DNA of 64,000 nt from Amylibacter sp. SFDW26 (GTDB lineage: Bacteria; Pseudomonadota; Alphaproteobacteria; Rhodobacterales; Rhodobacteraceae), in contig NZ_WEIC01000002.1 of NCBI RefSeq assembly GCF_009184395.1, positions 1-64,000 of the forward strand, read 5' to 3'. This document shows positions 8,301 to 30,006 of the stretch, piece after piece. Within the stretch, counting starts at the first letter, position 1. The number at the start of each line of letters is the position of its first letter. The translations under genes were made by a program, and so were the position numbers. The notes under the pieces were generated by a model. The model saw only the letters and a program-made list of their open reading frames with translations. It searched no databases and was not told where the DNA came from.

Positions 8301-9633
8301 TCAGCGTCGGTTCGAACGCTTGGATGCCCAAACGGTGCAATGTAGGCGCACGGTTCAGCATCACTGGGTGTTCGCGGATCACTTCGTCCAAGATGTCCCA
8401 CACTTCTGGGCGCTCTTTTTCAACGATCTTCTTCGCTTGTTTCACAGTCGAAGACATACCTTTGGCTTCTAGACGTGAATAGATAAATGGTTTGAACAGC
8501 TCCAACGCCATCTTTTTCGGCAAACCACATTGATGCAGTTTCAACTCAGGGCCAGTCACAATTACAGAACGACCCGAGAAGTCTACGCGTTTACCCAAAA
8601 GGTTTTGACGGAAACGGCCTTGTTTACCTTTAAGCATGTCTGACAATGATTTCAGCGCACGCTTGTTCGCACCTGTAATCACACGACCACGACGGCCGTT
8701 GTCGAACAATGCGTCAACTGACTCTTGCAACATACGTTTTTCGTTACGTACGATGATGTCAGGTGCGCGCAATTCGATCAAACGCTTCAAACGGTTGTTA
8801 CGGTTGATCACACGACGGTAAAGGTCGTTCAAATCAGACGTTGCAAAACGACCACCATCTAGTGGCACCAATGGGCGCAACTCTGGCGGGATCACTGGAA
8901 GAACAGTCATAACCATCCATTCAGGACGGTTGCCTGAATCGATAAACGCTTCAACAACTTTCAAACGTTTGATGATTTTCTTTGGCTTCAATTCGCCAGT
9001 AGCTTCTGCCAACTCTTCGCGCAGTTGTTCGGCTTCTGCTTCCAGATCGATGTTTGACAACATCTCACGGATGGCTTCCGCACCGATGCCAGCGTTGAAC
9101 GCGTCTTCGCCATAGACGTCTTGTGCGTCCATGTACTCTTCTTCGTTCATCATTTGACCGTAGTTAAGGTCAGTCAAACCTGGCTCGATCACAACGTATT
9201 GTTCAAAGTACAAAATACGCTCTAGTTCACGCAAAGTCATGTCCAGCATCAAACCGATGCGAGATGGCAATGACTTCAAAAACCAGATGTGCGCACATGG
9301 TGCTGCCAGATCAATGTGGCCCATACGTTCGCGACGTACTTTTTGAAGCGTAACTTCAACACCACATTTCTCGCAGACAACGCCGCGGTACTTCATGCGC
9401 TTATATTTTCCGCACAAGCATTCGTAGTCTTTTACTGGGCCAAAGATACGGGCACAGAATAGACCGTCGCGTTCTGGCTTGAACGTACGATAGTTGATAG
9501 TTTCCGGTTTCTTAATCTCACCAAAAGACCAAGATAAAATACGCTCTGGCGATGCCAAAGAGATTTTAATCTCGTCAAAAGACTTCGGTGGCTGGACCGG
9601 GTTAAACGGGTTGTTCGTGATTTCTTGGTTCAT
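5341..9633 (-). CDS. rpoC: DNA-directed RNA polymerase subunit beta'
   Basis: The beta' subunit carries the catalytic magnesium site of RNA polymerase. At 1430 residues it has the length usual in alphaproteobacteria. The N-terminal zinc ribbon [19 protein letters not shown] and the catalytic loop [12 protein letters not shown] (near residue 460) are intact, as are the [16 protein letters not shown] trigger-loop region and a C-terminal acidic tail. It follows rpoB after 46 bp. A short perfect hairpin, AGGCGC-GA-GCGCCT, covers the rpoB stop codon between them. The gene ends 18 bp before the bidirectional terminator. Confidence 0.99.
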
Positions 9634-9679
9634 GTTTTAGATCCTAATCTCGATTTCCTAAGGGAGCAGGCGCGAGCGC

Positions 9680-12600: not shown

Positions 12601-13816
12601 ACAATGCTGATGCAGCATCAACGGTTGGTGGCTCACCTGGGCGCATAACGCGGTAGATGTCCATCAATGCTGTGTCACGACCCAAGTTTTTGTCCGCAGC
12701 TAATGTGTTGCGGATGTATGGACCAACATTTACGTTATCGATGTCCAATGTTGGGATGTCTGTTACGCCATTTTCCAACAATGTGTGAATTGTACCACCA
12801 ACGATGTTTTCTTCTTTGTCGAACTCAAGTGTTAGTTCGTCACCCGCTTCTACCCAGATCTCACCAGTTTCTTCGTTGATGATATCTTTTGCAGAAAAAC
12901 GACCAACCAAGCCTTCGAATGGCACAAGAACGTCTGTTACTTTGCCTTCTTCGATCAGTTTCTTAACTGCGCGCGGAGTTACTTTTTTGCCTGCTTCTGC
13001 AATCACGTCGCCTGTTTTAGCGTCGATGATATCCAAAACTGGTTTTGTACCACGAACACGACCAGGGAAGAATTTAGTCACCCATGACTTTTTCTTCTTG
13101 TTGAACTTGTAGTTCACTGTGTCGTAATACGCGTCACAAATGCCTTCTTGGTCTAGGCCAAGCGCATAAAGAAGCGTTGTTACAGGCAATTTACGACGAC
13201 GGTCGATACGTGCGTATACGATGTCTTTCGCATCAAATTCAAAGTCCAACCAAGAACCGCGGTAAGGGATAATGCGGCTGGCGAACAATAGTTTACCTGA
13301 TGAGTGTGTTTTACCACGGTCATGGTCAAAGAACACGCCAGGTGAACGGTGCATTTGAGATACGATAACACGCTCAGTACCGTTCACAACGAATGTACCA
13401 TTTTGTGTCATCAAAGGCATATCGCCCATGAATACGTCTTGTTCTTTGATGTCTTTAACAGAACGTGCGCCTGTATCTTCGTCCACATCAAACACGATCA
13501 AGCGCAACGTCACCTTCAGTGGAGCGCTGTATGTCATGTCGCGTTGCTGACATTCTTCAACATCGTACTTTGGTTTTTCAAGTTCGTATTTTACGTACTC
13601 AAGAACCGCAGTTTCATTGAAGTCCTTGATTGGGAATACAGATTGGAAAACACCATTGATGCCTTCGCCGTCCATATGTGTGTCTTGATCACCGGAGCGC
13701 AAGAAAAGATCGTAAGAGCTTTTTTGAACTTCGATAAGGTTAGGCATATCCAAAACTTCGCGGATTTTGCCATAATATTTACGAATACGTTTTGTACCGG
13801 AATGCGTCTGAGCCAT
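9680..13816 (-). CDS. rpoB: DNA-directed RNA polymerase subunit beta
   Basis: The beta subunit forms one jaw of RNA polymerase and the rifampicin pocket. The product is 1378 residues from the ATG at 13816 ([17 protein letters not shown]), the start used by related alphaproteobacteria. A GTG four codons upstream (13828) is possible but has its purine-rich ribosome site too close. The rifampicin region reads [20 protein letters not shown], the normal sensitive alphaproteobacterial form, and [12 protein letters not shown] marks the late catalytic region. It is preceded by a 235-bp spacer with strong hairpins after rplL and followed by rpoC after 46 bp. Confidence 0.98.
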
Positions 13817-14510: not shown

Positions 14511-15023
14511 TTATGCAGCTTTCTCTTCAACCGTTTCCAAGATGGAAGCGATATTCGAAGCAGGCGCGCCAATTGCACCAGCGATGTTGCTTGCAGGTGC
14601 TCCGATACAGCCAACGATAGAAGCAATAAGCTCCTCACGTGACGGCATAGCAGCAACGGCTTTAACACCAGCTAGATCAAGTGCTGTCTCACCCATAGCA
14701 CCGCCAAGAATAACAAGCTTGTCATTCTCTTTAGCGTAATCGTTGGTAACCTTAGCGGCAGCAACAGGGTCTTCTGAATAAGACATTACAGTCATTCCTG
14801 TCAGCATACCTGAAATGCTTTCGCATGGTTTGCCATCAAGAGCGATTTTGGCGAGCTTGTTTTTGGCTACACGTACAGAACCACCCGCCTCACGCATGCG
14901 CGCGCGGAAGTCCTGCATTTCTGCAACTGTAATGCCGGCGTAGTGAGATACTACAACAACACCAGAGTCCGTGAAGATTTGGCCAAGTTCATCGACCAGG
15001 GCTTCTTTTTGGGCTCTATCCAC
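14511..15023 (-). CDS. rplJ: 50S ribosomal protein L10
   Basis: L10 anchors the L7/L12 stalk to 23S rRNA. The 170-residue protein starts at a GTG (15021-15023) with GGAG seven bases upstream, giving [18 protein letters not shown] conserved helix with the RxKNxL-type stretch ([12 protein letters not shown]) lies near residue 55, and the C-terminal helix for L7/L12 dimers follows. It is preceded by a 263-bp untranslated leader, consistent with autogenous control by the L10-L7/L12 complex, as known in other bacteria. Confidence 0.97.
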
Positions 15024-15286
15024 AGTTTTTCTCCAAATTATAGAAGGCTTACGCCCTCCGGCTCAGTTTTCACCAGATCGGCCTAAACCAACCTAGCATC
15101 TTAGGGTCCTATATTACGGGTCCCTCCCAAAGTCGCTCGAGGCATATGCATCGGGCTAATTGTTCGTTCCCCATCTCAGGCAGGAGATTAAGTCGTTTGT
15201 AGCGACACCCACCGTCTCGGACAGTATGAAGAGTGGCGAACCACTCTTCGTATCAACCGCACCCCAAAGGACGCGATCAAATTCTT
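15024..15286 (-). ncRNA. Untranslated leader of rplJL, candidate L10-type regulatory leader
   Basis: These 263 bases between rplA and rplJ hold no gene. Near the rplA end is a perfect 9-bp stem GAAGAGTGG / CCACTCTTC with a TTCG loop on the transcribed strand (15228-15249), not followed by a T-run. Near the rplJ end a small stem around GGCGTAAGCC lies close to the GGAG site. Such leaders bind L10 in other bacteria. No attempt was made to fit a covariance model, so the class assignment rests on position and size. Confidence 0.5.
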
Positions 15287-15985
15287 TTACCCAGCAATCG
15301 CTGCATCAACATTCAAAGTCACACCTGGGCCCATTGTTGAGCTTACAGCGATCTTTTTCATGTATGTGCCTTTTGCACCTTCTGGTTTAGCTTTTTGAAC
15401 AGCTGCAACGAATGCTTTGATGTTCTCGGCCAATTTTGCTTCGTCGAAAGATGCTTTACCAACACCTGCGTGCACAACACCCGCTTTTTCAACTTTGAAC
15501 TGCACTTCGCCGCCTTTAGCTGCTTCAACAGCTGCTTTAACGTCCATAGTCACAGTACCCACACGTGGGTTTGGCATAAGGTTACGTGGGCCAAGTACTT
15601 TACCCAAGCGACCAACAACAGCCATCATGTCTGGCGTAGCAATACAACGATCGAATTCGATTGTGCCGCCTTGTACGATTTCCATAAGGTCCTCTGCACC
15701 AACGATGTCAGCACCAGCTGCTTTAGCTTCTTCAGCTTTTGCATCACGTGCAAATACAGCTACGCGCATTGTTTTACCTGTGCCGTTTGGCAAAGCAACA
15801 ACACCACGAACCATTTGGTCAGCGTGACGTGGGTCAACACCCAAGTTCACAGCGATATCTACGGTTTCATCGAATTTAGCATTTGCGTTTGATTTAATCA
15901 AAGCTACTGCTTCTTCGATTGTAACGTCTGCTTTGCCAGCGAATGCAGCTTTAGCAGCCGTTGTTCTTTTACCTAGTTTAGCCAT
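15287..15985 (-). CDS. rplA: 50S ribosomal protein L1
   Basis: L1 forms the mobile stalk at the ribosomal E site and in E. coli represses the rplKA transcript. The 232-residue protein begins [15 protein letters not shown] and carries the conserved central block with [15 protein letters not shown]. Its start overlaps the rplK stop as TAATG, so the two are translationally coupled. A 263-bp leader then separates it from rplJ. Confidence 0.98.
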
Positions 15986-16410
15986 TACTTCACCTCGATG
16001 CCCATAGAACGCGCAGAACCCATGATGATCAGCATAGCTGCATCGATGTCATTTGCGTTTAGGTCTTTCATTTTCGCTTCAGCGATTTCTTTAACTTGCT
16101 TCGCAGTTACAGAACCGACAACTTCGCGACCTGGAAGGTTTGCACCAGACTTAAGCTTTGCAGCTTTTTTCAGCATGTATGATGCTGGTGGTGTTTTAAC
16201 ATCCATAGTAAATGATTTATCAACATAGTATGTGATAATTGTTGGACAAGGCGCACCTGGCTCCAACTCCTGTGTTTTCGCGTTAAACGCCTTACAGAAT
16301 TCCATGATGTTGATACCGCGTTGACCCAATGCTGGGCCTACGGGTGGTGATGGGTTGGCTTGACCTGCAGGGACCTGCAGTTTCATTGTGCCAGCTACTT
16401 TTTTAGCCAT
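15985..16410 (-). CDS. rplK: 50S ribosomal protein L11
   Basis: L11 binds the GTPase-associated region of 23S rRNA and is needed for RelA sensing of starvation. The 141-residue protein has [21 protein letters not shown] at the start and the [19 protein letters not shown] stretch. The ATG has GGAGGCC upstream. It overlaps rplA by one base (TAATG) and follows nusG after 106 bp. That spacer would hold any L1 regulatory target, but no clear mimic was recognised. Confidence 0.98.
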
Positions 16411-16516
16411 AATGGCCTCCTACTTTGCTCCGATCCTCAGGGCGCGTCCCTTTAGACCAATTTGGTGTGGTGCGGTTTCAGATCACGCGTGACCTTAGCC
16501 TCCCACAAACACCATA

Positions 16517-17050
16517 CTAAGTGATCTTACTCACCTGCATGTATTCCAGTTCTACAGGCGTCTCACGCCCGAAGATCGATACGGTCACTTTGAGACGTGA
16601 ATTCTCTTCGTCCACCTCTTCGACCATTCCAGAAAACCCTTCGAATGGTCCATCTGTTACATTCACTTGCTCGCCGATGTCGAACACGATTGTTGAACGC
16701 GGGCTATCTGCGCCCTCTTCAACTTGGTTCAAGATCGCTGCAACCTCGCGATCGCGCATTGGGATTGGCTTACCTGGTTGACCCAAGAAACCTGTCACAC
16801 GGTTCACATTAGAGATCAGGTGATATCCGCGCTCAGTCATGTCCATGCGGATCAAGATATAGCCTGGCATAAAGCGACGTTCTGCTGTCACTTTTTTGCC
16901 TTTGCGAACCTCAATTACCTCCTCGGTCGGAACCAAAGCTTCCTCGATTTGGTCCTCTAGGCCTTCTTGTTCAACAAGTTCTTTGATCTGTTCAGCAACT
17001 TTTTTCTCGTAATTCGAGAGAACACTTACTGAATACCAACGTTTAGCCAT
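16517..17050 (-). CDS. nusG: Transcription termination/antitermination factor NusG
   Basis: NusG binds RNA polymerase, suppresses pausing and links it to Rho or to the ribosome through S10. The 177-residue protein has the NGN domain (MAKRWYSVSVLSNYEKKVAEQI to about residue 115, including RRFMPGYILIRMDM) and a C-terminal KOW domain with VTDGPFEGFSGMVEEVD. It lies 160 bp after secE, across a spacer with two hairpins, and 106 bp before rplK. Confidence 0.98.
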   Translation of the reverse strand: MAKRWYSVSVLSNYEKKVAEQIKELVEQEGLEDQIEEALVPTEEVIEVRKGKKVTAERRFMPGYILIRMDMTERGYHLISNVNRVTGFLGQPGKPIPMRDREVAAILNQVEEGADSPRSTIVFDIGEQVNVTDGPFEGFSGMVEEVDEENSRLKVTVSIFGRETPVELEYMQVSKIT

Positions 17051-17137
17051 TTAGTCCGACACCTTGTGCACTGGCAGCTTCCTGCCAAAAATTCCATTTA
17101 TTTCAAATACTTAACGTATCCAAACACTGCAACAAAA

Positions 17138-17166
17138 TAGCGCGCATACCGAATCGTTGCGCGCTA
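17138..17166 (-). other. Terminator-like hairpin in the secE-nusG spacer
   Basis: On the minus strand TAGCGCGC and GCGCGCTA pair around a 13-base loop and are followed by TTTTG. A shorter stem, TGGCAG/CTGCCA, lies closer to nusG. The T-run is short, so partial termination or processing between secE and nusG is more likely than full termination. Confidence 0.5.
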
Positions 17167-17210
17167 AGATCTGTTGAGTACTGGGCTGATACCGCCCTAA
17201 CCCTTTAATT

Positions 17211-17402
17211 TCAAGAGGCTAAGTTCACAATTGCATCCAAACCAGAACGTGCTGTGATGTCCACGATTGAAAAGAAAATCGCAAAAATAGTTGCCATGAT
17301 AAATACCATGACAGTTGTGATGCCTGTCTCGCGACGAGAAGGCCACACGACCTTAGCCACTTCTGCGCGAACTTGCTGTACGAATTGCATTGGGTTAGCC
17401 AT
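17211..17402 (-). CDS. secE: Preprotein translocase subunit SecE
   Basis: SecE clamps the SecY channel in the inner membrane. The 63-residue single-span form is normal outside enterobacteria: MANPMQFVQQVRAEVAKVVWPSR, then a hydrophobic helix (about residues 26-48). The VWPSR motif is diagnostic. The ATG at 17402 is chosen over one three codons upstream (17411) because AAGGA is correctly spaced only for the downstream ATG. It is the first gene of the secE-nusG-rplKAJL-rpoBC run. Confidence 0.95.
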   Translation of the reverse strand: MANPMQFVQQVRAEVAKVVWPSRRETGITTVMVFIMATIFAIFFSIVDITARSGLDAIVNLAS

Positions 17403-17514
17403 TGCTATCATCCTTTATGAATCAAATAATCTGATACGCAGGATTGGTGGGGAATTCAAGAGCTCTGGCACCAGAAGTGATGTTAGAGGCTTCGCAGCCC
17501 CCAATTTCACCAAA

Positions 17515-17976
17515 TTACTGCGTAGCATCAGCTAAATACGCCAACAAGTTCTCAACATCAGCTTCTTTTTTCAGACCGCCAAAAGACATATTTGTGCCCT
17601 TAACAAATGCTTTGGGCTTGGTCAGAAATGCTGTTAAATTTTCAGCGTCCCAAGTTATACCAGACTCTTTCATCGCCTTAGAGAACTTAAAGCCCTCAAC
17701 AGCCGCTGCTTGCGCGCCTATGATGCCATGCAATGATGGGCCTGCACCATTTTTACCAGCTTTAACGCTGTGGCATGCTTTACACTTTTTGAAAACTTTT
17801 TTGCCTTTCTTAATATCACCCGCAAAAACAACTGCTTCTAAAGTGGCTTCCTCTGTTGCAGCTTCTTCCGTAACTGCTGGTGCCTCTTCTGTTGTTGCTG
17901 TATCTTGCGCAATGGCTGCGAAGCTGGTTGATGACATCGCAGTTATAACTACTAACATATTAAGTGTTTTTGGCAT
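17515..17976 (-). CDS. Class I cytochrome c (c2/c550-like), periplasmic
   Basis: The 153-residue protein has a signal peptide (about residues 1-24, ending in FAAIAQ), an acidic Ala/Thr/Glu-rich linker to about residue 50, and one c-type haem domain. The haem motif is CKACH (C65, C68, H69) and the distal ligand is the methionine in KGTNMSFGG (Met130). It would carry electrons in the periplasm. The ATG at 17976 has AAGGA upstream and gives a proper signal peptide; a longer frame adds 24 residues without one. It lies downstream of the yceI gene on the same strand and may be cotranscribed. Confidence 0.88.
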   Translation of the reverse strand: MPKTLNMLVVITAMSSTSFAAIAQDTATTEEAPAVTEEAATEEATLEAVVFAGDIKKGKKVFKKCKACHSVKAGKNGAGPSLHGIIGAQAAAVEGFKFSKAMKESGITWDAENLTAFLTKPKAFVKGTNMSFGGLKKEADVENLLAYLADATQ

Positions 17977-18028
17977 TTTGCTTTCCTTAGGTATATAAGT
18001 GTAAATCACACCACAGTATTTGTGGCTT

Positions 18029-18625
18029 TTATTTCGTGTTGAAAACAAGCCGCAATGTCACAGGCGATGTGCGTGTGATACCCGGCAGTTTTGCCAGTTC
18101 CATCAACTTAGTCACACCATCATTAATACCAACATCTTCTGAACCGATGAAAATCATATCATTCGTTGTGACCACAGCTTTGTCGTCAGCAATACGTGCC
18201 ACAAACATTTCTGTTTCAACTTCGATGCTTTGACCCAAGAATGAAAGAACGCCTTCGACATCAACAATAGACATAGCGCCAGCTTCCATGTGGGCAATTT
18301 CTTCCATATCTACTGTTGCTGAAAGATTTGCAGTTGCTGCACCTTTGAACACGTGCTCGATCATACGTTCGTTACGAATGTCGATGTTTGTTTGAACAGA
18401 GGCTAGATCGATGTCGATTGAAACTTCACCTTTTGCAGACACTGTGCCGCTGATTGTTTCAAAGCTGTGTATTTCGCCAACTTTTTCTTTCTTGATCGAA
18501 CCAAACGCAACTTTCGAATTTTCGCTATCCAAAGTCCACGCTTTTGCATGACCACCAGCATATGCAGTTGAACCCATTGATACGATAGCAGCGATCGTTG
18601 CGCCTTTGATAATTGTCTTGAGCAT
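18029..18625 (-). CDS. YceI-family periplasmic lipid-binding protein
   Basis: The 198-residue protein has a signal peptide (MLKTIIKGATIAAIVSMGSTAYA) and then the YceI lipocalin-like beta barrel, recognised from WTLDSENSKVAFGSIKK, the DIDLASVQTNIDIRNERM block and the VTLRLVF end. Family members bind polyisoprenoid or quinone-like lipids in the periplasm. It is the first gene of a minus-strand pair with the cytochrome c and is divergent from an ECF sigma factor 81 bp away. This suggests it may be a target of that sigma factor, as YceI genes are in some alphaproteobacteria. Confidence 0.88.
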   Translation of the reverse strand: MLKTIIKGATIAAIVSMGSTAYAGGHAKAWTLDSENSKVAFGSIKKEKVGEIHSFETISGTVSAKGEVSIDIDLASVQTNIDIRNERMIEHVFKGAATANLSATVDMEEIAHMEAGAMSIVDVEGVLSFLGQSIEVETEMFVARIADDKAVVTTNDMIFIGSEDVGINDGVTKLMELAKLPGITRTSPVTLRLVFNTK

Positions 18626-18706
18626 TTTGCCCTCCCTATAACATTTACTTTAGCTGTTAAAACTAATGCTTGTACTCGTAGACACCTAAAGGTTAGAAAT
18701 TATTCA

Positions 18707-19246
18707 ATGAAACGCGAAAAAACATATCAACAAAATATGGGAACGGCCCTGCAAGAGCATATGCCAGCAATTTGGCGTTTCGCTTTTTCTTTGGCGGGAA
18801 CACCCGATGTTGCGGATGATTTGGCCCAAGCCACATGTCTGCGCGCCATCGAAAAATCCCATCAATTTCAAGAGGGTGGTGCCTTAATTGGCTGGTGTTT
18901 AACCATCTGTCGGTCAATTTGGCTGAATGAACTGCGATCCAAAGCCGTTCGTAATGCCGGCGGCCTGGAAAGTATCGAAGCAAAAGACCTTGCTGATTTA
19001 TCTCCGTCTGTAGAAACGAATATTTTCGCGTCTGAGGTGTTTACAAGGATAATGGAACTGCCAGAAGCGCAACGAAGCACAGTGGAAATGGTCTATGTTC
19101 AGGGATTCAGCTATAAAGAAGCCGCGGAAACCCTGCAGGTGCCAATTGGTACGATCATGAGCCGCCTTGCAACAGCGCGCAAAGCTTTGGCTGATTTAAA
19201 CAACGAAGAGTTCATATCTTCGAAGGTCGTTAAAAATGAGATATAG
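18707..19246 (+). CDS. ECF-family RNA polymerase sigma factor
   Basis: The 179-residue protein contains only sigma regions 2 and 4. Region 2 spans about residues 12-70 (PDVADDLAQATCLRAIEKS and WLNELRSK), and region 4 about residues 113-160 (LPEAQRSTVEMVYVQGFSYKE and the GTIMSRLATARKAL recognition helix). The start is the ATG at 18707. The downstream gene, a membrane-anchored anti-sigma factor, overlaps by 11 bp. The divergent yceI-cytochrome c pair and the sigma gene itself are probable targets, but no clear ECF promoter motif was confirmed in the 81-bp gap. Confidence 0.9.
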   Translation: MKREKTYQQNMGTALQEHMPAIWRFAFSLAGTPDVADDLAQATCLRAIEKSHQFQEGGALIGWCLTICRSIWLNELRSKAVRNAGGLESIEAKDLADLSPSVETNIFASEVFTRIMELPEAQRSTVEMVYVQGFSYKEAAETLQVPIGTIMSRLATARKALADLNNEEFISSKVVKNEI

Positions 19247-20006
19247 TGACGATACATTGATAGAATTCCTAAACGGCACTTTGGCCGAGGATGATGCACG
19301 CGCTATTGAAACAGCATTGGAAACCGATGTTGAATTGGGCGAGCGCATGATGGCTCTTGATACATTTGCAACGCCTGTACGCGAAGTTATGGAAACAATT
19401 CCAAGCCAAGAGCGCATTGAACGTTTACAAGCAGAACTTGAAGCAATAGCGGCACCTGCTGCAGCCCCCAAATCCAGTTGGGGCTTTCAAAAAATGGCTG
19501 CAAGCATTGCGCTTGGTTTGATTGCTGGCTGGTCTGCAAACGCATATCTGACAACTCCAGAACCAACAAAACCAAGCTGGCGTATGGAAGTTGCGAATTA
19601 CCAAGCATTATATGTGCCAGAAACAGTCGCACATCTGCAAATCGATCCTGATGCGCTGAAGAACCAATTCGAACGGGCATCAAGCGCTGTTAATTTGGAT
19701 TTGCCACAAGATGCATTGGATAATGTGGCAGATTTAACATTAGCACGCGCTCAGGTTTTAGGGTTTTCGGGCAAACCTCTGATCCAGATCGCATATAAAG
19801 ACGCAAAAGGAATGCCAATTGCACTTTGTATCATTGCAAAACCAAATGTTGCGCCAAAAGACAGCACAAAGTTTGAAGTGCTTCAAGGGATGGCAAGTGC
19901 AACTTGGGAAACGGCTACACACCAATTCTTGTTGATTGGTAACTCCGAGCAAGAAAACATTAAGAATTGGTCTGATGTTATGCAAAAAGCTTTCACAGAG
20001 GTTTAA
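19236..20006 (+). CDS. Membrane-anchored anti-sigma factor
   Basis: The 256-residue protein has a cytoplasmic N-terminal helical part (MRYSDDTLIEFLNGTLAEDDAR) like anti-sigma domains, one membrane segment (about residues 87-105, MAASIALGLIAGWSANAYL) and a periplasmic C-terminal domain of about 150 residues. The N-terminus lacks the His/Cys zinc set of ChrR-type anti-sigma factors, so it is not a zinc-binding type by inspection. It overlaps the sigma gene by 11 bp. The signal it senses is unknown. A strong terminator follows. Confidence 0.82.
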   Translation: MRYSDDTLIEFLNGTLAEDDARAIETALETDVELGERMMALDTFATPVREVMETIPSQERIERLQAELEAIAAPAAAPKSSWGFQKMAASIALGLIAGWSANAYLTTPEPTKPSWRMEVANYQALYVPETVAHLQIDPDALKNQFERASSAVNLDLPQDALDNVADLTLARAQVLGFSGKPLIQIAYKDAKGMPIALCIIAKPNVAPKDSTKFEVLQGMASATWETATHQFLLIGNSEQENIKNWSDVMQKAFTEV

Positions 20007-20033
20007 AAGCACACTCACTTATATAAATTGTTT

Positions 20034-20069
20034 AAGGTTTGTGTCCCATGGCGGATCACAAACCTTTTT
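20034..20069 (+). terminator. Terminator of the sigma/anti-sigma operon
   Basis: A perfect stem AAGGTTTGTG / CACAAACCTT with a 13-base loop is followed by TTT, 27 bp after the anti-sigma stop codon. Confidence 0.9.
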
Positions 20070-20112
20070 CGTTTTAGAAAGATTTTGATTGTAATTTCAT
20101 TTCTTTTTTGAA

Positions 20113-20130
20113 ATTATACGAACGTATAAT
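20113..20130 (+). promoter_or_regulatory. Perfect palindromic operator before the tetR gene
   Basis: ATTATACG-AA-CGTATAAT is a perfect 8+8 palindrome centred about 31 bp before the regulator start. Its right half includes TATAAT, a perfect -10 hexamer, so repressor binding would block the promoter. The size and symmetry are those of a TetR-family operator, and autoregulation is inferred. Confidence 0.8.
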
Positions 20131-20152
20131 AATGTATGTTCACAGGAAATCA

Positions 20153-20794
20153 ATGGCACCCGAAAGACGCAGCTTTAAAAGGGAAACCGCAGACCAACGC
20201 CAAAAGGCATTGATCCAGTCCACCCTACGCTTAATTGCCTCTGGCGGTCCAGAGGCAGCAACAGTACGTACAATCTCCGAAGATGCGGGCGTGACCCAGG
20301 GCTTAATCCGTCACTACTTTTCATCAAAAGAGGAGCTGTTTCTGGCTGCATATGAACACCATATGACCGAAATGACAAATACGACCAGCGGCGTATTAGC
20401 AGCGGATCATCCCAGCGCAGTCGAACACCTAAAAGCGTTCATCGTTGCCGCACTAACCCCCCCTGTTGTTGATGCCCAAGCCGTCTCAATATGGGCGGGC
20501 TTCATTCACATGGTACAACGTGACCCTGCGATGCGCGCGATACACGAAAAAACCTATTACCATTTCCGGGATGAACTACAGGTCTTGGTCGCTTCAGCAT
20601 GGACAGAGGTTGGGATCGAAAAATCACAGACAGAACACCGCGCAGCCGCGATTGCCTGCAATGCTTTGCTGGATGGTCTTTGGCTAGAAGGTGGCGCATT
20701 GCCTGACTCTTTTGAAACAGGTGAATTGGCTAATGTTGGCTTGTCCTCTTTGGGTGCCATCCTAAATGTTAATTTTTCTAACGTGGGGCAGTGA
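20153..20794 (+). CDS. TetR-family transcriptional regulator (BetI-like)
   Basis: The 213-residue protein has an N-terminal helix-turn-helix (about residues 12-58: ALIQSTLRLIASGGPEAATV, then VTQGLIRHYFSSKEELF) and a C-terminal ligand-binding domain resembling the BetI group. The ATG at 20153 has AGGA five bases upstream; an in-frame upstream start would lie over the operator. Its stop overlaps the region just before the aminotransferase start, so it leads the arginine-type operon and is its likely regulator through the palindrome at 20113-20130. The ligand could be an arginine derivative, which is inference only. Confidence 0.87.
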   Translation: MAPERRSFKRETADQRQKALIQSTLRLIASGGPEAATVRTISEDAGVTQGLIRHYFSSKEELFLAAYEHHMTEMTNTTSGVLAADHPSAVEHLKAFIVAALTPPVVDAQAVSIWAGFIHMVQRDPAMRAIHEKTYYHFRDELQVLVASAWTEVGIEKSQTEHRAAAIACNALLDGLWLEGGALPDSFETGELANVGLSSLGAILNVNFSNVGQ

Positions 20795-20796
20795 TC

Positions 20797-21990
20797 ATGA
20801 AATATGCATCCGTTACAGACCGTTTGGCAGATTTGGGCGGGCAAAAATGGGAAATACACGCCCTTGCCCGCAAACTTGTAAGCGAAGGTCACGATATTGT
20901 TGAGCTGACGATTGGCGAACCAGATGTGTCAACACCATCAGAGTTAATTCAGATCGCATCAAATGCTATGATCAATGGGCGCACTGGCTATTCCAACGGC
21001 AGCGGCGAAGCATCATTACTTGCAGCACTTTCAGAACGATATTCCACGCGCCTTGGTCGTAAAATAAATACGGATCAATTCTTATGTTTACCAGGCACGC
21101 AAACATCACTTTACACTGTACTTATGGGTTTAACCGAAACAGGTGATGAAGTGTTGGTTGGCGACCCTATGTATGCAACATACGAGGGCGTCATTGCTGC
21201 AGGCGGAGCCACTGTTGTACCTGTTCCTTTAAAACCAGAAAATGGCTTTCGCATTACCGCCGCAGATATTGAAAAACGGATCACATCCAAAAGCCGTGCG
21301 ATATTGCTAAACACACCGCACAACCCGACGGGGGCTATCTTATCGAAACAGGATATCTTGGATATCTGCCTGCTTGCCCAAAAACATGACCTTTGGATCG
21401 TATCGGATGAGGTCTATGAAGAGATGGTTTATGATGGGGAAGTTTTCACATCCCCTCTATCCTTCCCAGAGTTCTCTGATCGTGTTGTTGCAGTCTCTTC
21501 GATTTCAAAATCACACGCAGCCCCTGGATTTCGCAGCGGTTGGTGTGTGGGATCAGCTGAATTCAAAGCACGGTTATTACCGCTTGCTGAAACCATGTTG
21601 TTTGGCAATCAACCATTCATTGCGGATATGACGGCAGAAGCCGTATCAAAGCCATCCGCAGCCGCCATAGATATGACTGCACGCTTTTCACGACGTGCAG
21701 ATATGGTGTTTGACGCCTTAAACAACGTTTCAGGTTTGCAGGCGCATCGCCCGCAAGCTGGGATGTTTATGCTGCTGAATGTTGCTTCTACTGGTCTGAC
21801 AGGCAAAGAATTTGCTTTGGATCTGTTGGAAAATGGGGGGGTCGCTGTCATGCCTGGCGATTCATTTGGCACTGCTTTAACCGATTGGGTGCGACTTGGG
21901 TTAACCACTGATGATGAAAGCCTTATGAAAGCATGCCAGCGCATCGTGGATTACGTTTCCAATCGCAATACCAACAAAGGTGCTGCATGA
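20797..21990 (+). CDS. aruH: Class I/II aminotransferase, arginine:pyruvate transaminase-like
   Basis: The 397-residue protein is a fold-type I PLP enzyme. It shows NTPHNPTG near residue 172, SDEVYEE near 203, and the PLP lysine in SISKSHA (Lys238), with GFRSGW just after. On its own it would be only a general aminotransferase. The next gene is a ThDP decarboxylase of the AruI type, and the AruH-AruI pair converts L-arginine to 2-ketoarginine and then 4-guanidinobutyraldehyde in Pseudomonas. The ATG at 20797 has GGGG upstream. The next gene overlaps its stop as ATGA. Substrate assignment is from context and needs assay. Confidence 0.7.
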   Translation: MKYASVTDRLADLGGQKWEIHALARKLVSEGHDIVELTIGEPDVSTPSELIQIASNAMINGRTGYSNGSGEASLLAALSERYSTRLGRKINTDQFLCLPGTQTSLYTVLMGLTETGDEVLVGDPMYATYEGVIAAGGATVVPVPLKPENGFRITAADIEKRITSKSRAILLNTPHNPTGAILSKQDILDICLLAQKHDLWIVSDEVYEEMVYDGEVFTSPLSFPEFSDRVVAVSSISKSHAAPGFRSGWCVGSAEFKARLLPLAETMLFGNQPFIADMTAEAVSKPSAAAIDMTARFSRRADMVFDALNNVSGLQAHRPQAGMFMLLNVASTGLTGKEFALDLLENGGVAVMPGDSFGTALTDWVRLGLTTDDESLMKACQRIVDYVSNRNTNKGAA

Positions 21991-23564
21991 AAAGCATCGG
22001 TGAAACACTGATTGATCAGCTTCAGGAACATGATGCAGAGGTTGTATTTGGCATTCCGGGGGTTCATACGGTCGAACTGTACCGCGGCCTATCTTCTTCA
22101 AACATTCGCCACATCACCCCACGCCATGAACAAGGTGCAGGCTTTATGGCAGATGGCTATGCCCGTGTTTCGGGAAAAACGGGCATCGCTTTTGTCATCA
22201 CTGGTCCCGGCCTGACAAACATCCTGACACCTATGGGGCAAGCACGTGCAGATAGTGTGCCTATGCTTGTCGTATCCAGTGTGAATGCCACCTATAATTT
22301 GGGTCTCGGCTTGGGGCATCTACATGAGCTGCCCGATCAGTTGAAAATGGCGCAAACAGTTGCGCTATCCTCTGAACAAGTCACCAAGGCCGCTGAATTA
22401 GTGCCCGCTGTGGACAACGCTTATCGCATCTTAAATACAGAACGCGGCGGCCCTGTTCATATTGAAATCCCGCTAGATGTGATGGCACATCCATTCGATC
22501 ATAATCCCAAAGAACACACGGCATCATCAAAGCCGTACACACCCATTGATCAAATAAAAGCCGCTGTTGATCTGTTAGAAACAGCCAAATCACCCGTTAT
22601 TATTGCTGGTGGCGGGGCAAAGCACTCAGGCGATTTAATTACACAGCTTGCAGACAGTCTGGACGCCCCTGTCGTGCAGACCACAAATGCACGTGGCATC
22701 ATGCATAAACATCCTTTGGGTATTCCTGCCAGTCCAAGTCTTGCTGCAGTACGTTCATTACTAAAACAGGCCGATGTTGTGTTGGGCATTGGAACAGAAG
22801 TTGGGCCAACAGATTTTGATATGTATCAGAACGGGGAATTCCCTAAGCTATCCCGTTTTATCCGTATCGATATCAGTTCTGAACAATTAGCGCGCCATGA
22901 TACCACGATTGGAATTTGTGGACGCGTAGAGGATATATTGCCAGAGTTGCTTTCTATGCTTCCATCAGAACTTAAATCTGATGGCTTAAACCGCGCATCA
23001 ACGACTAGGGATGCAGCCTATGCAGAGCTTACAGGTGATATGCGTGAACAAATAGGTTGTCTTGAAACCATACGTGACGCCTATCCAAATGCAATTGTTG
23101 TGGGGGATTCCACACAACCCATCTATGCAGGCAATCTATACTATGATCACGACCGTGCAGGTGGATGGTTTAATGCGGCAACAGGCTTTGGTGCGCTTGG
23201 ATACGGTATTCCTGCTGCAATCGGTGCCGCAATCGCTGATCCAAAAACGCAGGTCATATGTCTTACGGGTGATGGCGGCGCTCAGTTTACATTACCAGAG
23301 TTGATGACTGCCAAAGATGAAAAGCTGCCAATCCTCTTTATCGTTTGGAACAACAACGGCTACCGCGAAATAGAAACATCTATGATTGATGCTGGTGTAG
23401 ATGTTGTTGGCTGCGATCCAAACGCACCCGATTTCAAACACGTCGCGGCCTCTTGCGGGATATCGTATCAATCCTGCACCTTGGACGATGGCACTTTGGA
23501 AACCACATTAAAATCAGCAGATATGACAAATGGCCCTGCCATGATTGAAATTAAAATCGCCTAG
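21987..23564 (+). CDS. aruI: Thiamine-diphosphate decarboxylase, 5-guanidino-2-oxopentanoate decarboxylase-like
   Basis: The 525-residue protein has the three-domain layout of acetolactate-synthase-like ThDP enzymes. The catalytic glutamate lies in RHEQGAGFMADGYARVSG near residue 50, and the ThDP-binding GDGG...NN motif is near residues 430-460 (LTGDGGAQFTLPEL then FIVWNNNGYREI). The start overlaps the aminotransferase stop (ATGA), so the two are translationally coupled. With that neighbour the best match is 2-ketoarginine decarboxylase (AruI). Other 2-oxoacid decarboxylase or synthase activities cannot be excluded. Confidence 0.7.
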   Translation: MKSIGETLIDQLQEHDAEVVFGIPGVHTVELYRGLSSSNIRHITPRHEQGAGFMADGYARVSGKTGIAFVITGPGLTNILTPMGQARADSVPMLVVSSVNATYNLGLGLGHLHELPDQLKMAQTVALSSEQVTKAAELVPAVDNAYRILNTERGGPVHIEIPLDVMAHPFDHNPKEHTASSKPYTPIDQIKAAVDLLETAKSPVIIAGGGAKHSGDLITQLADSLDAPVVQTTNARGIMHKHPLGIPASPSLAAVRSLLKQADVVLGIGTEVGPTDFDMYQNGEFPKLSRFIRIDISSEQLARHDTTIGICGRVEDILPELLSMLPSELKSDGLNRASTTRDAAYAELTGDMREQIGCLETIRDAYPNAIVVGDSTQPIYAGNLYYDHDRAGGWFNAATGFGALGYGIPAAIGAAIADPKTQVICLTGDGGAQFTLPELMTAKDEKLPILFIVWNNNGYREIETSMIDAGVDVVGCDPNAPDFKHVAASCGISYQSCTLDDGTLETTLKSADMTNGPAMIEIKIA

Positions 23565-23587
23565 GCGGACACCATGGAGATATGACA

Positions 23588-24370
23588 ATGGCAGAAACAT
23601 CATATGAATTCACACGCGCAATCACACGCGCGCCTTGTAAAAGTATCATTGATGGCTTGCGCGCTGTTGATATCGGTACGCCTGATTTGGATCAAATGCG
23701 TGCAGATCATGAATTATATGTGGCGACGTTAAAAGAAACAGGCGCAACTGTTCTTGAATTGCCTGCGGTTGATGATTTTCCAGATTCCGTTTTCGTAGAA
23801 GACACCGCATTATGCCTACCCCAAGGTGCCGTTTTAATGCGCCCCGGCGCCCCATCGCGTATGGGAGAGGTCGCTCATATGGCACCGCATTTGCGCGAAC
23901 TTTATGACGATGTTCGTGAAATCAAAGGCCCAGGTCATATCGAAGGCGGAGACATCTTAACCACATCAAGAGAAATCTTAGTGGGATTATCAGAACGCAC
24001 AGATATGGAAGGCGTCGAGGAATTACGCGCGCTTGTGAAAGATTGGGGACACACAGTGCGTGTCGTTCACACACCCGAAGGCGTGTTACATTTCAAAACA
24101 GATTGCTCACTGTTGGATGCAGATACAATTCTATCCACCAAACGCCTTGCCGTTTCTGGGTGCTTTAAAGATTACCGTGTTTTGCATACAGCTGACGGCG
24201 AAGAAGCTTGCGCCAATGCAATTCGTTTCAATCAATTCGTCCTGATGCCAGCAGGCTTTCCAAATACACGCGATATGTTGCAGGAAAACGGATACCAAGT
24301 CCGCGAAATCGGCAATACAGAATGCGCCAAGTTGGATGGTGGCATGTCCTGCCTGTCGCTTAGGTTCTAA
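23588..24370 (+). CDS. Dimethylargininase (DDAH) family amidinohydrolase
   Basis: The 260-residue protein matches dimethylarginine dimethylaminohydrolases, which release methylamines from methylated arginine to give citrulline. The catalytic set is present in order: Glu119 in HIEGGDIL, His168 in GVLHFKTDC and Cys255 in GGMSCLSL near the C-terminus, close to the E114/H162/C249 positions of the Pseudomonas enzyme. The ATG at 23588 has GGAGA upstream at good spacing, and another ATG two codons earlier is too close. It is the last gene of the TetR operon, and its stop overlaps the convergent oxyR stop. A related amidinohydrolase role on arginine or a guanidino product is possible. Confidence 0.8.
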   Translation: MAETSYEFTRAITRAPCKSIIDGLRAVDIGTPDLDQMRADHELYVATLKETGATVLELPAVDDFPDSVFVEDTALCLPQGAVLMRPGAPSRMGEVAHMAPHLRELYDDVREIKGPGHIEGGDILTTSREILVGLSERTDMEGVEELRALVKDWGHTVRVVHTPEGVLHFKTDCSLLDADTILSTKRLAVSGCFKDYRVLHTADGEEACANAIRFNQFVLMPAGFPNTRDMLQENGYQVREIGNTECAKLDGGMSCLSLRF

Positions 24371-25263
24371 TGCAAGCCCTCAGCCGATTTCTTTACAAGT
24401 TCAGAAATTAGTAGAAACTGTTCTGTCAATGGACTCGCTTTGCGCCAGATCATACCGATTGTACGAGAAGGTTGTTTTCCCTTAAATCGTGCCGCAGAAA
24501 CTGGCGCAGAGCGTGTTTCAACGGCAACGGCCATTTCGGGTATAAGTGTAACACCAATACCTGTTCCGACCATTTGAACAAGTGTTGATAAAGAGCTTCC
24601 ATCAAGACCCTCCCGTGGCAATCCAGAGCGAATATTGCAAAATGACAATGCTTGGTCTCTAAAGCAATGCCCCTCTTCTAAAAGCAGCAATCGCATTTCA
24701 CGCAAAGATGCGCTGTCAGGGACTGGTTTTTCGGCATCTGCATTACTGCGCACGAGAACGAAGTCTTCCTTAAATAGTTCAACTTCAGTTAAAACTGGCT
24801 CAGATATAGGTAGAGCTACGATTGCTGCATCCAGCTTACCATCTTCCAACTCTTGGATAAGTTTTTCTGTTAGAGTTTCTCGCACTTGTATTTCTAGGGT
24901 TGGGTAAGTCTGCGTCAGATTTCCAATAATTGCTGGTAATAGATAAGGCGCAATTGTGGGGATTACACCAATACGCAGCTGCCGCATCATGCCATCTGTT
25001 GAAGCTCTGGCCAGATCACCCAGCTCGTCAACAGATTGCAGAATATCGCGAACACGAACGGCGAACTGTTCACCGAAATTTGTTAATCTAATTTTTCGAG
25101 GGGCACGTTCAAATAGATCCGTTCCCAATGTTTCTTCCAGTTCTTTAATCTGCATAGACAAAGCTGGTTGCGAAATAGCGCAGGCATCAGCGGCATGCCC
25201 AAAATGCCCATGTCGTGCCAAAGCTTCAAAATATCGAAAGTGTTTGAGCGTTAAGTTTTTCAT
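24367..25263 (-). CDS. oxyR: Hydrogen peroxide sensor OxyR (LysR family)
   Basis: The 298-residue LysR-type regulator has an N-terminal helix-turn-helix (FEALARHGHFGHAADACAIS) and the two redox cysteines of OxyR in GHCFRDQALSFC (Cys200 and Cys209), the same spacing as the C199/C208 pair of E. coli. It activates peroxide defence when these form a disulfide. It is divergent from katG, its expected target, with 144 bp between. Its stop codon overlaps that of the dimethylargininase gene on the other strand. Confidence 0.93.
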   Translation of the reverse strand: MKNLTLKHFRYFEALARHGHFGHAADACAISQPALSMQIKELEETLGTDLFERAPRKIRLTNFGEQFAVRVRDILQSVDELGDLARASTDGMMRQLRIGVIPTIAPYLLPAIIGNLTQTYPTLEIQVRETLTEKLIQELEDGKLDAAIVALPISEPVLTEVELFKEDFVLVRSNADAEKPVPDSASLREMRLLLLEEGHCFRDQALSFCNIRSGLPREGLDGSSLSTLVQMVGTGIGVTLIPEMAVAVETRSAPVSAARFKGKQPSRTIGMIWRKASPLTEQFLLISELVKKSAEGLH

Positions 25264-27603
<2,340 letters not shown>

Positions 27604-27645
27604 TCCACATTAACGATAAGTGAGCTTAGAACTTCTTATTTAAAA

Positions 27646-27681
27646 AATGACGGCGTTTCAAAATATTGAAGCGCCGTCATT
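27646..27681. terminator. Terminator between katG and the Zrg-type operon
   Basis: A 16-bp stem with one G-T pair (AATGACGGCGTTTCAA against TTGAAGCGCCGTCATT) has a 4-base loop. On the minus strand it is followed by TTTTTTA, so it best ends the zinc operon. katG converges on it from the plus side. Confidence 0.9.
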
Positions 27682-27732
27682 CTGAGTGTCGATCCTAAGG
27701 GCAAGCGCGTAATTTAAAATGCATGCGAATAA

Positions 27733-28245
27733 CTATCTTTTGTAAGGAACAATCTGATCTGCAGCTAGAGAATAAGAAACTTTTGCAAGCTGAGTAGACG
27801 TTGATGCAGTTCCAAATTGTCCAATCACATTTACAGCTTCATATAGCCCTGTATTTTCATATGGCTTTTCTGTCGTAACAAAAACCAATTGATTGGCTGG
27901 AGGTGGCGGCACATGTACACAGGCGCCCACAAAAGGCACGAGAATAAATGCACTCACACCTGTTCCTGAATAATCGATAGGAACGATATAACCTGGTATG
28001 CGAACAATCTGACCATTCCATTCGGTACGTGTCCCAAATGACTTGGGTTGTTGGCTCATAGGGTTCTTAAGTTCGTGATCTATTAGGCTTTGTAGCAATG
28101 GTGGGGTAGAAACTTGTCCATCAGGTAAAAGATCCGACCAATCCAGATCAATGAAATCTTTGGCCCAAGCGACCTGTGGCGATGCAGTTAATGCACTTAT
28201 GCCCGCCAGAACAGCTCTGCGATTTAAACCAAGATTACCACACAT
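27733..28245 (-). CDS. DUF3299 periplasmic protein, second copy
   Basis: The 170-residue protein has a signal-like N-terminus (GLNRRAVLAGISALTASPQVAWA) and the DUF3299 core with GYIVPIDY, AFILVPFVGACVHVPPPPANQ and LYEAVNVIGQF. The same core is in the gene just upstream, so the two are tandem paralogues. DUF3299 proteins accompany Zrg-type zinc transporters in Vibrio, and a periplasmic role in metal delivery is inferred. The start overlaps the upstream gene by 11 bp; the ATG at 28245 was chosen because it gives the signal sequence. It is last in the operon, 51 bp before the terminator. Confidence 0.75.
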   Translation of the reverse strand: MCGNLGLNRRAVLAGISALTASPQVAWAKDFIDLDWSDLLPDGQVSTPPLLQSLIDHELKNPMSQQPKSFGTRTEWNGQIVRIPGYIVPIDYSGTGVSAFILVPFVGACVHVPPPPANQLVFVTTEKPYENTGLYEAVNVIGQFGTASTSTQLAKVSYSLAADQIVPYKR

Positions 28246-28738
28246 AGATATCCATCTTGTCCGCTGTAAGTGTATAGCCAGTTTGCGCAATCTCAGTGGC
28301 TTGCAACTCATGCTCCAATCGTCCAGTCACCCAAACGGCCTCCCATAAGTCGTCATTGGGCCATGGTATCTTACTCGTGACAAAAACCAGTTGATTTGGC
28401 GGTGGTGGCGGTGTGTGAATACATGCGCCAACATACGGCACTAAAATAAAACTAGTGACACCTTTTGTAGACATATCAATAGGAATAATAAAACCAGGCA
28501 TCTTGATATATTTACCATTCAAATCATCATTCAGCTTTGTAGCATTGGCATCAAAGATAGGGCGCCATGTATCGTTTTCCACGTCCCGTTCACCTTCACC
28601 AATAATCTCAGAATATGGTACACCTGGGGGGATAAGATCATCCCAAGTGATTTCGCTTGGTGTTACCGCAAAAGCGGTTCGTGGAAACGTTGCGAAAGCT
28701 GTCGCAGCAGTTACAAGGCTACGGCGCGATATATTCAT
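28235..28738 (-). CDS. DUF3299 periplasmic protein, first copy
   Basis: The 167-residue protein has a signal peptide with an arginine pair (MNISRRSLVTAATAFATF), compatible with Tat or Sec export. The core includes GFIIPIDMSTKGVTSFILV, GACIHTPPPPPNQ and LWEAVWVTGRL, closely matching the next gene. It follows the ABC permease after 17 bp and overlaps the second copy. Keeping two copies in one operon suggests a heteromeric or division-of-labour role. The biochemical activity is not known. Confidence 0.75.
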   Translation of the reverse strand: MNISRRSLVTAATAFATFPRTAFAVTPSEITWDDLIPPGVPYSEIIGEGERDVENDTWRPIFDANATKLNDDLNGKYIKMPGFIIPIDMSTKGVTSFILVPYVGACIHTPPPPPNQLVFVTSKIPWPNDDLWEAVWVTGRLEHELQATEIAQTGYTLTADKMDIYVW

Positions 28739-28755
28739 CTTCTCATACCTTTCAC

Positions 28756-30006
28756 TTAAATTTTGACCATCATACCATCGACCAAAGATAAACGATAGGC
28801 TCTTAATGCAGGTACTAAGCTCACAATTGCGCTAGCAGCTATTACGGCGAGCAACACACATACTTCGCGTGCGGTAGGTGCGTCGATCGGAAGCCAAAGC
28901 CCAAACGCACTATCGACAAGAGGCTGTGCTATTGCTAGCCCCACATAAAGGAATACAAGACCAAGCACCGCTCCGATTGCAGCCATTAAACTAGCCTCTA
29001 ACACCAGCAACCCAAGAATCACGCGCGGGCGCGCACCCATAGCTCGAAAGATGGCCATCTCACGACGGCGCTCATTCAAGCTAGAAAAGATTGTTGCCAT
29101 CATTCCTATGAGGGCTGTGATAACAACCATTCCAGAAACACCGATCAATGCCGTTTCTGCGATGCCGACGATTTGCCAAAGCTCTTGTAAGGCAACGCCT
29201 GGTAAAACCGCCAGAAGCGGCTCTTGTTTGTATTCATTAATCGCTCGTTGCAAACCGAATACTTGCAAACGACCTTTGACACCGACCAATGCTGCAGTTA
29301 CTGCTTGAGGCTGCAATTCCATCTGGCGGATAACGTCAGCAGGTGTAGACTTCCCTGGAATCTTGGCACCGCTTTTCCAATCGACATGAATAGCTTCAAT
29401 AGCCTCTAGGCTAACCATCACAGTACGATCAACTGGTGTGCCAGTTTTTTCCAATATACCAGAAATACGGAAAGGTTGGTCTTCATGTTCTGTAAACGAA
29501 GCTAAACCATGCGCAACTACAATCGGGTCACCAACTCGATAACCAAGTGTTGCAGCAACATCCGCCCCAATCACAGTATCGAAAAGGTCAGACATGACCG
29601 CACCATCTTTTAGCTTTATTGATTGGCCAGAACGATATTTATAACGATCAAAAAATGCAGTTGTCGTTCCCATTACACGAAATTGTCGATGACTATCGCC
29701 TAACGAAATTGGAACGATCCAATCCACTTCAGATCGTGCTGCAATATCTTGATAGCTTTCCCAGCTTAGGTTGCTCGTTGCATTACCAATTCTGAATACC
29801 GAATAAAGTAAAAGTTGCACAGAACCGGATCGTGCGCCAACAATCAAATCAGTGCCTGAGATTGTGTCGGCAAAACTAGCTTTTGCTCCAGTACGGACCT
29901 TCTCCACCCCCAGAAACAAAGCAACAGATAAAGCAATTGCTAAAATCGTCATTCCAACGGTCAATGCTCGTGCCATCAATGAGCCAAAGGCAAGACGAAA
30001 GATCAT
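28756..30006 (-). CDS. ABC transporter permease, MacB/FtsX type
   Basis: The 416-residue protein has one N-terminal membrane helix (about residues 10-30), a periplasmic domain of about 230 residues, and three C-terminal helices (starting near 285, 330 and 375), as in MacB/LolC-type permeases. The FtsX-like block INERRREMAIFRAMGARPRVI is clear. Such permeases usually move substrates between periplasm and membrane. Here the zur and ZrgA neighbours suggest a role in zinc acquisition, as for the Vibrio Zrg system. The start overlaps the ATPase stop (ATGA). Confidence 0.82.
   Translation of the reverse strand: MIFRLAFGSLMARALTVGMTILAIALSVALFLGVEKVRTGAKASFADTISGTDLIVGARSGSVQLLLYSVFRIGNATSNLSWESYQDIAARSEVDWIVPISLGDSHRQFRVMGTTTAFFDRYKYRSGQSIKLKDGAVMSDLFDTVIGADVAATLGYRVGDPIVVAHGLASFTEHEDQPFRISGILEKTGTPVDRTVMVSLEAIEAIHVDWKSGAKIPGKSTPADVIRQMELQPQAVTAALVGVKGRLQVFGLQRAINEYKQEPLLAVLPGVALQELWQIVGIAETALIGVSGMVVITALIGMMATIFSSLNERRREMAIFRAMGARPRVILGLLVLEASLMAAIGAVLGLVFLYVGLAIAQPLVDSAFGLWLPIDAPTAREVCVLLAVIAASAIVSLVPALRAYRLSLVDGMMVKI

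Follow-up and report, generated by a model that had tools for sequence, protein, structure and literature searches.

Gene organization of the locus

The first 64,000 nucleotides of contig NZ_WEIC01000002.1 of Amylibacter sp. SFDW26 (hereafter the window) contain four plus-strand open reading frames (ORFs), at 20132-24370, which encode in order a TetR-family regulator, a class I aminotransferase (AT), a thiamine diphosphate (ThDP)-dependent decarboxylase and a DDAH-type hydrolase (DDAH). Together with the candidate operator that precedes them, the features are:

20113..20130, no strand: predicted operator, by direct reading of the sequence, with related sites upstream in relatives
20132..20794, plus strand: TetR-family regulator, 220 amino acids, Pfam TetR_N and TetR_C_6
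20797..21990, plus strand: class I/II pyridoxal phosphate-dependent aminotransferase, 397 amino acids, AruH/AspC-like by context, Aminotran_1_2
21987..23564, plus strand: ThDP-dependent enzyme, 525 amino acids, AruI/IlvB1-like, model NF005712 passed
23582..24370, plus strand: DDAH-type hydrolase, 262 amino acids, probable dimethylargininase, structural relative 3rhy, checked residues kept

The TetR stop at 20794 is followed after 2 nt by the AT start codon (ATG at 20797), the AT and ThDP genes overlap by 4 nt in the ATGA at 21987-21990, and a gap of 17 nt lies between the end of the ThDP gene (23564) and the start of the DDAH gene (23582). An earlier sequence-only reading of this DNA had reported the ATGA overlap and had named the same four families, all of which agree with the Pfam or superfamily matches. 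It had placed the unit at 20108-24370. The end of that span stands; position 20108 is the TTG of an extended reading frame, which would take the palindromic operator candidate into the TetR gene, and the ATG at 20132 is therefore the likely start. A convergent LysR-family gene overlaps the DDAH stop with its own stop end by 4 bp, so the operon ends at DDAH. Neither an aldehyde dehydrogenase gene nor a ureohydrolase gene lies within the operon.

Identity of the encoded enzymes

The ThDP enzyme has three TPP-enzyme domains (Pfam) and passes NF005712, the model for 5-guanidino-2-oxopentanoate decarboxylase, with 703 bits (cut-off 500). By this curated model it is an AruI-type 2-ketoarginine decarboxylase, as had been proposed from the sequence. 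A closer match to acetolactate synthase, which by its own terms would have refuted the sequence-only reading, was not seen: TIGR00118 gave 269.3 bits against a cut-off of 538.35, and this identity was rejected. The AT matches Aminotran_1_2 with 209.4 bits; none of the best 25 of 78 matched NCBIfam models passes its cut-off, the top one being an archaeal aspartate aminotransferase (253.4 bits). GntC, a guanitoxin cyclodehydratase, was also rejected as an identity for the AT (NF041364, 252.9 bits, cut-off 415). The AT gene does lie next to the ThDP gene, as the transaminase-decarboxylase pairing of the arginine transaminase pathway requires, and by this context the protein is arginine transaminase (AruH/AspC)-like.

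DDAH belongs to the arginine deiminase (ADI)/DDAH superfamily. Its best solved relative is the DDAH chain 3rhy (E=2.5e-50), with 1h70 and 3bpb as further solved DDAH relatives; we take all three chains to be from Pseudomonas aeruginosa. In the alignment to 3rhy the protein keeps L18, D60, F63, E65, D66, R85, E114, R132, H162, D244 and C249, of which E114, H162 and C249 form the catalytic Cys-His-Glu set and the others were checked as substrate or ligand residues, presumably including those that bind the alpha-amino acid moiety. The same residues are kept in 17/17 operon homologues and 20/20 unlinked ones, with a single exception, E114D. Since these ligand residues are kept, and if their roles are as we assume, the substrate should be an alpha-amino acid, so that DDAH would act before any transamination. 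In arginine deiminases an Asp lies two residues past the catalytic His; this position is Lys in 37/37 DDAH homologues and in the HFKT motif of the window protein, and arginine deiminase was rejected as an identity. The hydrolase is a probable dimethylargininase, and is termed here DDAH-type rather than a certified equivalog. It shares its catalytic and ligand residues with the solved bacterial DDAH and differs in being encoded within an AT-ThDP operon. In a DDAH tree, three unlinked proteins fall into one group with 17 operon members, including that of the window (support 0.89), and one operon member (L167) lies outside it.

Gene neighbourhoods of relatives

The occurrence of the four families together was examined in other genomes. 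A genome scan for the ThDP enzyme gave at least 594 pattern matches, among them 592 relatives, and the best 80 loci were kept; by record title these come from Rhodobacterales, Rhizobiales, some other Alphaproteobacteria and some Gammaproteobacteria. Partner genes were sought by tblastn with proteins of the window and of relatives. AT was counted when encoded on the same strand and no more than 1.5 kb away, and a transporter was called from an ABC transporter binding protein (SBP) of at least 45% identity or an ATPase of at least 50% identity. The sample is biased toward close ThDP relatives, and the counts are lower bounds, with loci cut by a contig end scored as lacking the missing genes.

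The association recurs in other genomes. TetR was found near the ThDP gene in 49 of the 80 loci, AT in 50, an ABC transporter in 50, DDAH in 9 and a second hydrolase family, DDAH2, in 30; 11 loci had none of the sought partners. Where either hydrolase occurs (39 loci), the transporter is also there in 37. The sequence-only reading was borne out in joining AruI-like and DDAH-type enzymes and an aminotransferase in one TetR-led unit, but the presence of the transporter in 50 of the 80 loci makes the set wider than the four genes it had proposed. In most cases the transporter genes diverge from the operon, with the intergenic site described below between them, and the SBP (tested for locus L008) is nearest to the lysine/arginine/ornithine family, at 210.6 bits and below the cut-off of 256.35.

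The arrangement of the window, TetR-AT-ThDP-DDAH, is accompanied by the transporter in 7 loci and lacks it in two (L003 and L005, both of which begin just before TetR). With DDAH2 the transporter accompanies DDAH2-TetR-AT-ThDP in 12 loci, DDAH2-TetR-ThDP in 7 and DDAH2-ThDP in 10, the named records of this last layout being mostly Mesorhizobium. TetR-AT-ThDP with neither hydrolase detected occurs with the transporter in 10 loci and without it in 8, and AT-ThDP alone in 8. The remaining layouts are single cases, such as L071, in which TetR is turned round and the site described below is absent, and L080, with AT and a transporter downstream.

DDAH2 is a distant family of the DDAH/ADI superfamily, 25-29% identical to the window DDAH and found mostly in Rhizobiales records. 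Its members (for example L023:3277-4164; 30 loci in all) have the motifs FTHD and HLMS. The catalytic residues and R85/R132 are kept in 30/30, with H in place of E65 and S in place of T165, and the position two past the catalytic His is Met in 30/30. For the L023 member no curated NCBIfam model reaches its cut-off. DDAH is the last gene of its operon and DDAH2 the first; these opposite ends suggest that the two hydrolases joined the AT-ThDP set by separate recruitment. Behind the operon of L023 (Phyllobacterium; 7619-11624) are genes for a third DDAH/ADI-superfamily protein, an aldehyde dehydrogenase and an M20-type amidohydrolase on the opposite strand.

The TetR regulator and a conserved operator candidate

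The TetR protein has Pfam TetR_N and the BetI-type C-terminal domain TetR_C_6, both above cut-off; an identity as the choline repressor BetI was rejected (TIGR03384, 87.1 bits, cut-off 201.3). Its gene is preceded at 20113-20130 by ATTATACGAACGTATAAT, with arms ATTATACG-AA-CGTATAAT and the last base 1 nt before the TetR ATG. This element had been described as a perfect 18-bp palindrome, which is incorrect: two 8-bp arms flank a non-palindromic AA, and 16 of 18 positions are symmetric. Its core, TATACGNNCGTATA, has one occurrence without mismatch in the window, where 0.11 would be expected at up to one mismatch, and 20113 is the sole place in the genome that matches the full arms with fewer than two mismatches. 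A second place in the window, 13205-13218, has one mismatch to the core. At up to three mismatches, 14 matches were found in the strain's own genome and 20 for a reversed-pattern control, so that no further operator targets were evident there.

We searched 68 regions for the core exactly as it stands in the window, 64 of them upstream of TetR and 4 upstream of DDAH at loci with the transporter and no ThDP gene. It was found with at most 3 of 12 mismatches in 44 regions; two-base-block shuffles would give 3.2 and stretches drawn at random from these loci 1.7. Eighteen of the 24 regions without it belong to DDAH2 loci, in which the operon starts with DDAH2, TetR comes second and the site is further upstream; the other six are L036, L071, L144, L155, L172 and L176. 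A matrix built from 42 sites (27 distinct, the window's included) has the consensus ATTATnC(A/G)nn(T/C)GnATAAT. For comparison, in random 310-base stretches drawn from the fetched loci without removal of real sites, the 95th percentile of the score was 1.9 and the 99th 17.1.

The 19 DDAH2 loci with TetR were outside the training of the matrix. All of them have a site upstream of DDAH2, with a score of at least 16.5, and none of the 10 DDAH2 loci without TetR and AT has one (best score 2.4); these ten loci, with transporter, DDAH2 and ThDP and without TetR or site, are L014, L019, L020, L022, L026, L028, L029, L030, L034 and L040. Over the 80 loci, a score of at least 15 was reached in 47 of the 49 with TetR and in 1 of the 31 without, counting training sites and with the loci interrelated. 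These observations suggest that 20113-20130, which looks like a conserved element, is the putative operator of TetR. At L044 (3400-4800) the site is kept and no TetR match lies between DDAH2 and AT; the TetR there may be broken, diverged or replaced.

An exact form of the site pattern matches in 20 of 295 genomes of the family (5 for the reversed control), and 15 of those 20 also belong to the 54 with a ThDP match. Among 19 of the loci (L190-L208), cluster genes are present in 13 and absent from 6. Genome G235 has seven fully symmetric 18-bp palindromes such as ATTATTCGTACGAATAAT; the locus around one of these, L205, is without the tested cluster genes, and the repeated palindrome perhaps represents another regulon or a repeat.

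Linkage of DDAH to the AT-ThDP genes

In the same 295 genomes (thresholds E 1e-40 for DDAH and E 1e-100 for ThDP), DDAH was matched in 61, ThDP in 54 and both in 35, an association with a Fisher p of 9e-16 when kinship is ignored. DDAH stands apart from ThDP in 52 of the 61 genomes that match it. The only other genome of the genus searched (n=1) has neither gene at these thresholds; it was also searched for an empty site, and gave no match to the window's LysR protein (E 1e-60) or YceI-like protein (E 1e-20).

Twenty unlinked DDAH loci were sampled from the 52 genomes without adjacency. The transporter is beside DDAH in 4, without AT-ThDP, and absent in 16. In one of these genomes, G282, the site (score 26.0) is at a transporter-DDAH locus (L151), and TetR-AT-ThDP with a site of its own is on another contig (L169). 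In G270 (L158) a TetR homologue, the transporter, DDAH and the site occur together, with no ThDP match at E 1e-100. Within 3.5 kb of DDAH at the 20 loci, no fixed catabolic partner was recognised beyond the transporter; this was judged by eye, with no family search, and several of the listed clusters are wrong-frame ORFs.

Such a distribution could mean that the AT-ThDP genes form an arginine/ornithine operon behind which the hydrolase gene stands by chance. The pair is side by side in only 9 of the 295 genomes, and 16 of the 20 unlinked loci lack the transporter and 18 the site, all of which would fit. However, the linkage is seen again in records from several genera, hydrolases of two divergent families stand at opposite ends of the same set, and the site occurs in trans at the transporter-DDAH locus of G282; chance placement of DDAH is therefore very improbable in our view.

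Relation to described systems

The closest described counterpart is in Sinorhizobium meliloti. According to a 2020 report (PMC7268258), AspC (SMc02262), which shows 40% homology to AruH, accepts arginine, agmatine, ornithine and putrescine in transamination with pyruvate; the gene downstream of aspC encodes IlvB1 (SMc02263), an AruI-like keto-acid decarboxylase. The window's AT-ThDP pair is likely the counterpart of SMc02262-SMc02263, orthology being taken from gene order. That paper mentions neither dimethylarginine nor the tags SMc02258-SMc02261, and TetR is absent from its main text. Two other papers describe SMc02259, three tag numbers before aspC, as a lysine-arginine-ornithine-binding protein (table in PMC4941405) and, with raised levels in hfq mutants, as an amino acid binding protein (PMC2848018). 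Five Sinorhizobium/Ensifer loci of our sample (L047-L049, L054 and L055) have transporter, TetR, AT, ThDP and site, with AT proteins 54-55% identical to that of the window; neither DDAH nor DDAH2 was detected in these five, and the window in turn is without the transporter. This points to a dedicated transporter and repressor for the Sinorhizobium AspC-IlvB1 route.

The sequence-only reading knew of no description of the four-gene set. The AT-ThDP half is not new if, as is probable, it is the one already characterised in a relative (PMC7268258). For the attachment of DDAH and for the operator no description was found, which is weak evidence of absence given poor coverage of subscription journals; in PMC11052242, as far as it was available, aruH and aruI are merely named, in figure or table text.

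The AruH-AruI arginine transaminase pathway of P. aeruginosa, reportedly described by Yang and Lu in 2007, likewise pairs a transaminase with a 2-ketoarginine decarboxylase. The window differs in having TetR and an added DDAH. The P. aeruginosa operon has the AruRS two-component genes beside it, perhaps a feature of that species rather than of the pathway; no sensor kinase or response regulator was recognised by eye among 22 ORFs of at least 120 amino acids over 15000-30000 of the window.

Proposed pathway

With somewhat better than even confidence, we read the locus as part of a TetR-repressed arginine/methylarginine catabolic regulon, a variant of the arginine transaminase pathway to which DDAH has been added to give two parallel entry points. 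In one, DDAH would convert free methylarginines (asymmetric dimethylarginine, ADMA, and monomethylarginine) to citrulline and (di)methylamine. In the other, arginine, and probably ornithine too, would be transaminated by AT, and the ThDP enzyme would decarboxylate the keto acid to 4-guanidinobutanal or 4-aminobutanal. An aldehyde dehydrogenase would then oxidise the aldehyde, and for the guanidino compound a ureohydrolase would complete the route to gamma-aminobutyrate by cleavage. TetR would act at the operator upstream of its own start and be released by a substrate or intermediate, and in relatives the ABC transporter would import the amino acids. The gene families, the active-site residues of DDAH, the spacing of the genes, the conserved operator-like site that goes with TetR and the recurring linkage are observed; we infer the substrates, the repressor action and its ligand, the aldehyde and ureohydrolase steps and the parallel running of the two entries.

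Several observations weigh against this reading. The window DDAH scores 216.6 bits with the dimethylargininase model NF045658, below its cut-off of 450, and the AT has no equivalog assignment among the best 25 of its 78 matched models. In the accessible text of PMC7268258, IlvB1 is sevenfold more active with 5-amino-2-oxopentanoate, the keto acid of ornithine; with promiscuous counterparts of this preference in Sinorhizobium, the AT-ThDP half could be accounted for by the use of arginine or ornithine, without the methylarginines from protein turnover that the sequence-only reading had put forward as a possible substrate. The side-by-side arrangement seen in 9 of 295 genomes leaves ThDP and DDAH non-adjacent in 26 of the 35 that have both. 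Among the unlinked DDAH loci the site is present in 2 of 20 (G282 and G270), and of the 14 that lie in genomes with ThDP it is present in G282 alone. TetR loci without the site also occur, namely L036 and L071 of the 80 and L172 and L176 of 15 further loci with TetR. Finally, the strain's own genome encodes an arginase, which is above cut-off at 285 bits, next to an ornithine cyclodeaminase gene, so arginine may also be used there by a route other than the operon.

Instead of running in parallel, the two halves might be consecutive, with DDAH making citrulline from which AT and the ThDP enzyme would yield 4-ureidobutanal. This would explain why the hydrolase and AT-ThDP share an operon and a site, and it agrees with binding residues for an alpha-amino acid in DDAH, from which action before transamination would follow. 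However, in 18 of the 80 loci TetR-AT-ThDP and the site occur and no hydrolase of either family was detected, and the four unlinked loci with the transporter and DDAH lack AT-ThDP. In PMC7268258, as far as available, citrulline was in the AspC assay mix and is not among the named substrates. We regard consecutive action as quite unlikely.

In mammals methylarginines are degraded by two routes, DDAH and AGXT2, and symmetric dimethylarginine (SDMA) is not known to be taken by DDAH. The operon could similarly be dedicated to methylarginines, with AT and the ThDP enzyme acting on methylated arginines including SDMA, and DDAH on ADMA and monomethylarginine. The placing of DDAH and AT-ThDP behind one site would suit this, as would the promiscuity of AspC in the accessible text of PMC7268258, but the 10 loci with transporter-TetR-AT-ThDP and no detected hydrolase suggest that the main substrate is arginine itself or ornithine, and such dedication is unlikely.

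A related version, to which we give an equally low probability, is a regulon that senses methylarginine: DDAH hydrolysis would be combined with transamination, the decarboxylase would handle dimethyl-2-ketoarginine, and a single TetR would have a methylarginine as its ligand. Were this so, the two recruitments of DDAH-type enzymes would indicate that marine and soil Alphaproteobacteria regularly feed on methylarginine. Degradation of methylated proteins releases methylarginines, and to our knowledge the recovery of their nitrogen by environmental bacteria has been little studied. For the arginine/methylarginine regulon that we favour, the conserved site is a direct handle on TetR, its ligand and its regulon.

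Other genes of the strain and of the window

The transporter SBP has no match in the strain's own genome at E 1e-8, a search in which the same query finds orthologues of 75-76% identity in G255 and G282; the strain must therefore use other uptake. Its genome has four other SBP_bac_3 matches. An agmatinase-family ureohydrolase is encoded elsewhere in it and could serve the last step of the pathway. Facing the arginase-ornithine cyclodeaminase pair (L186:5670-8520) is a gene that by eye encodes an Lrp/AsnC-like regulator.

To the left of the operon in the window lie an ECF-type sigma factor gene and a likely anti-sigma gene, both recognised by eye. Directly behind it (24367-27603), the convergent LysR-family gene, whose product is nearest to the OxyR model though below its cut-off, is divergent from katG, the latter assigned by eye.

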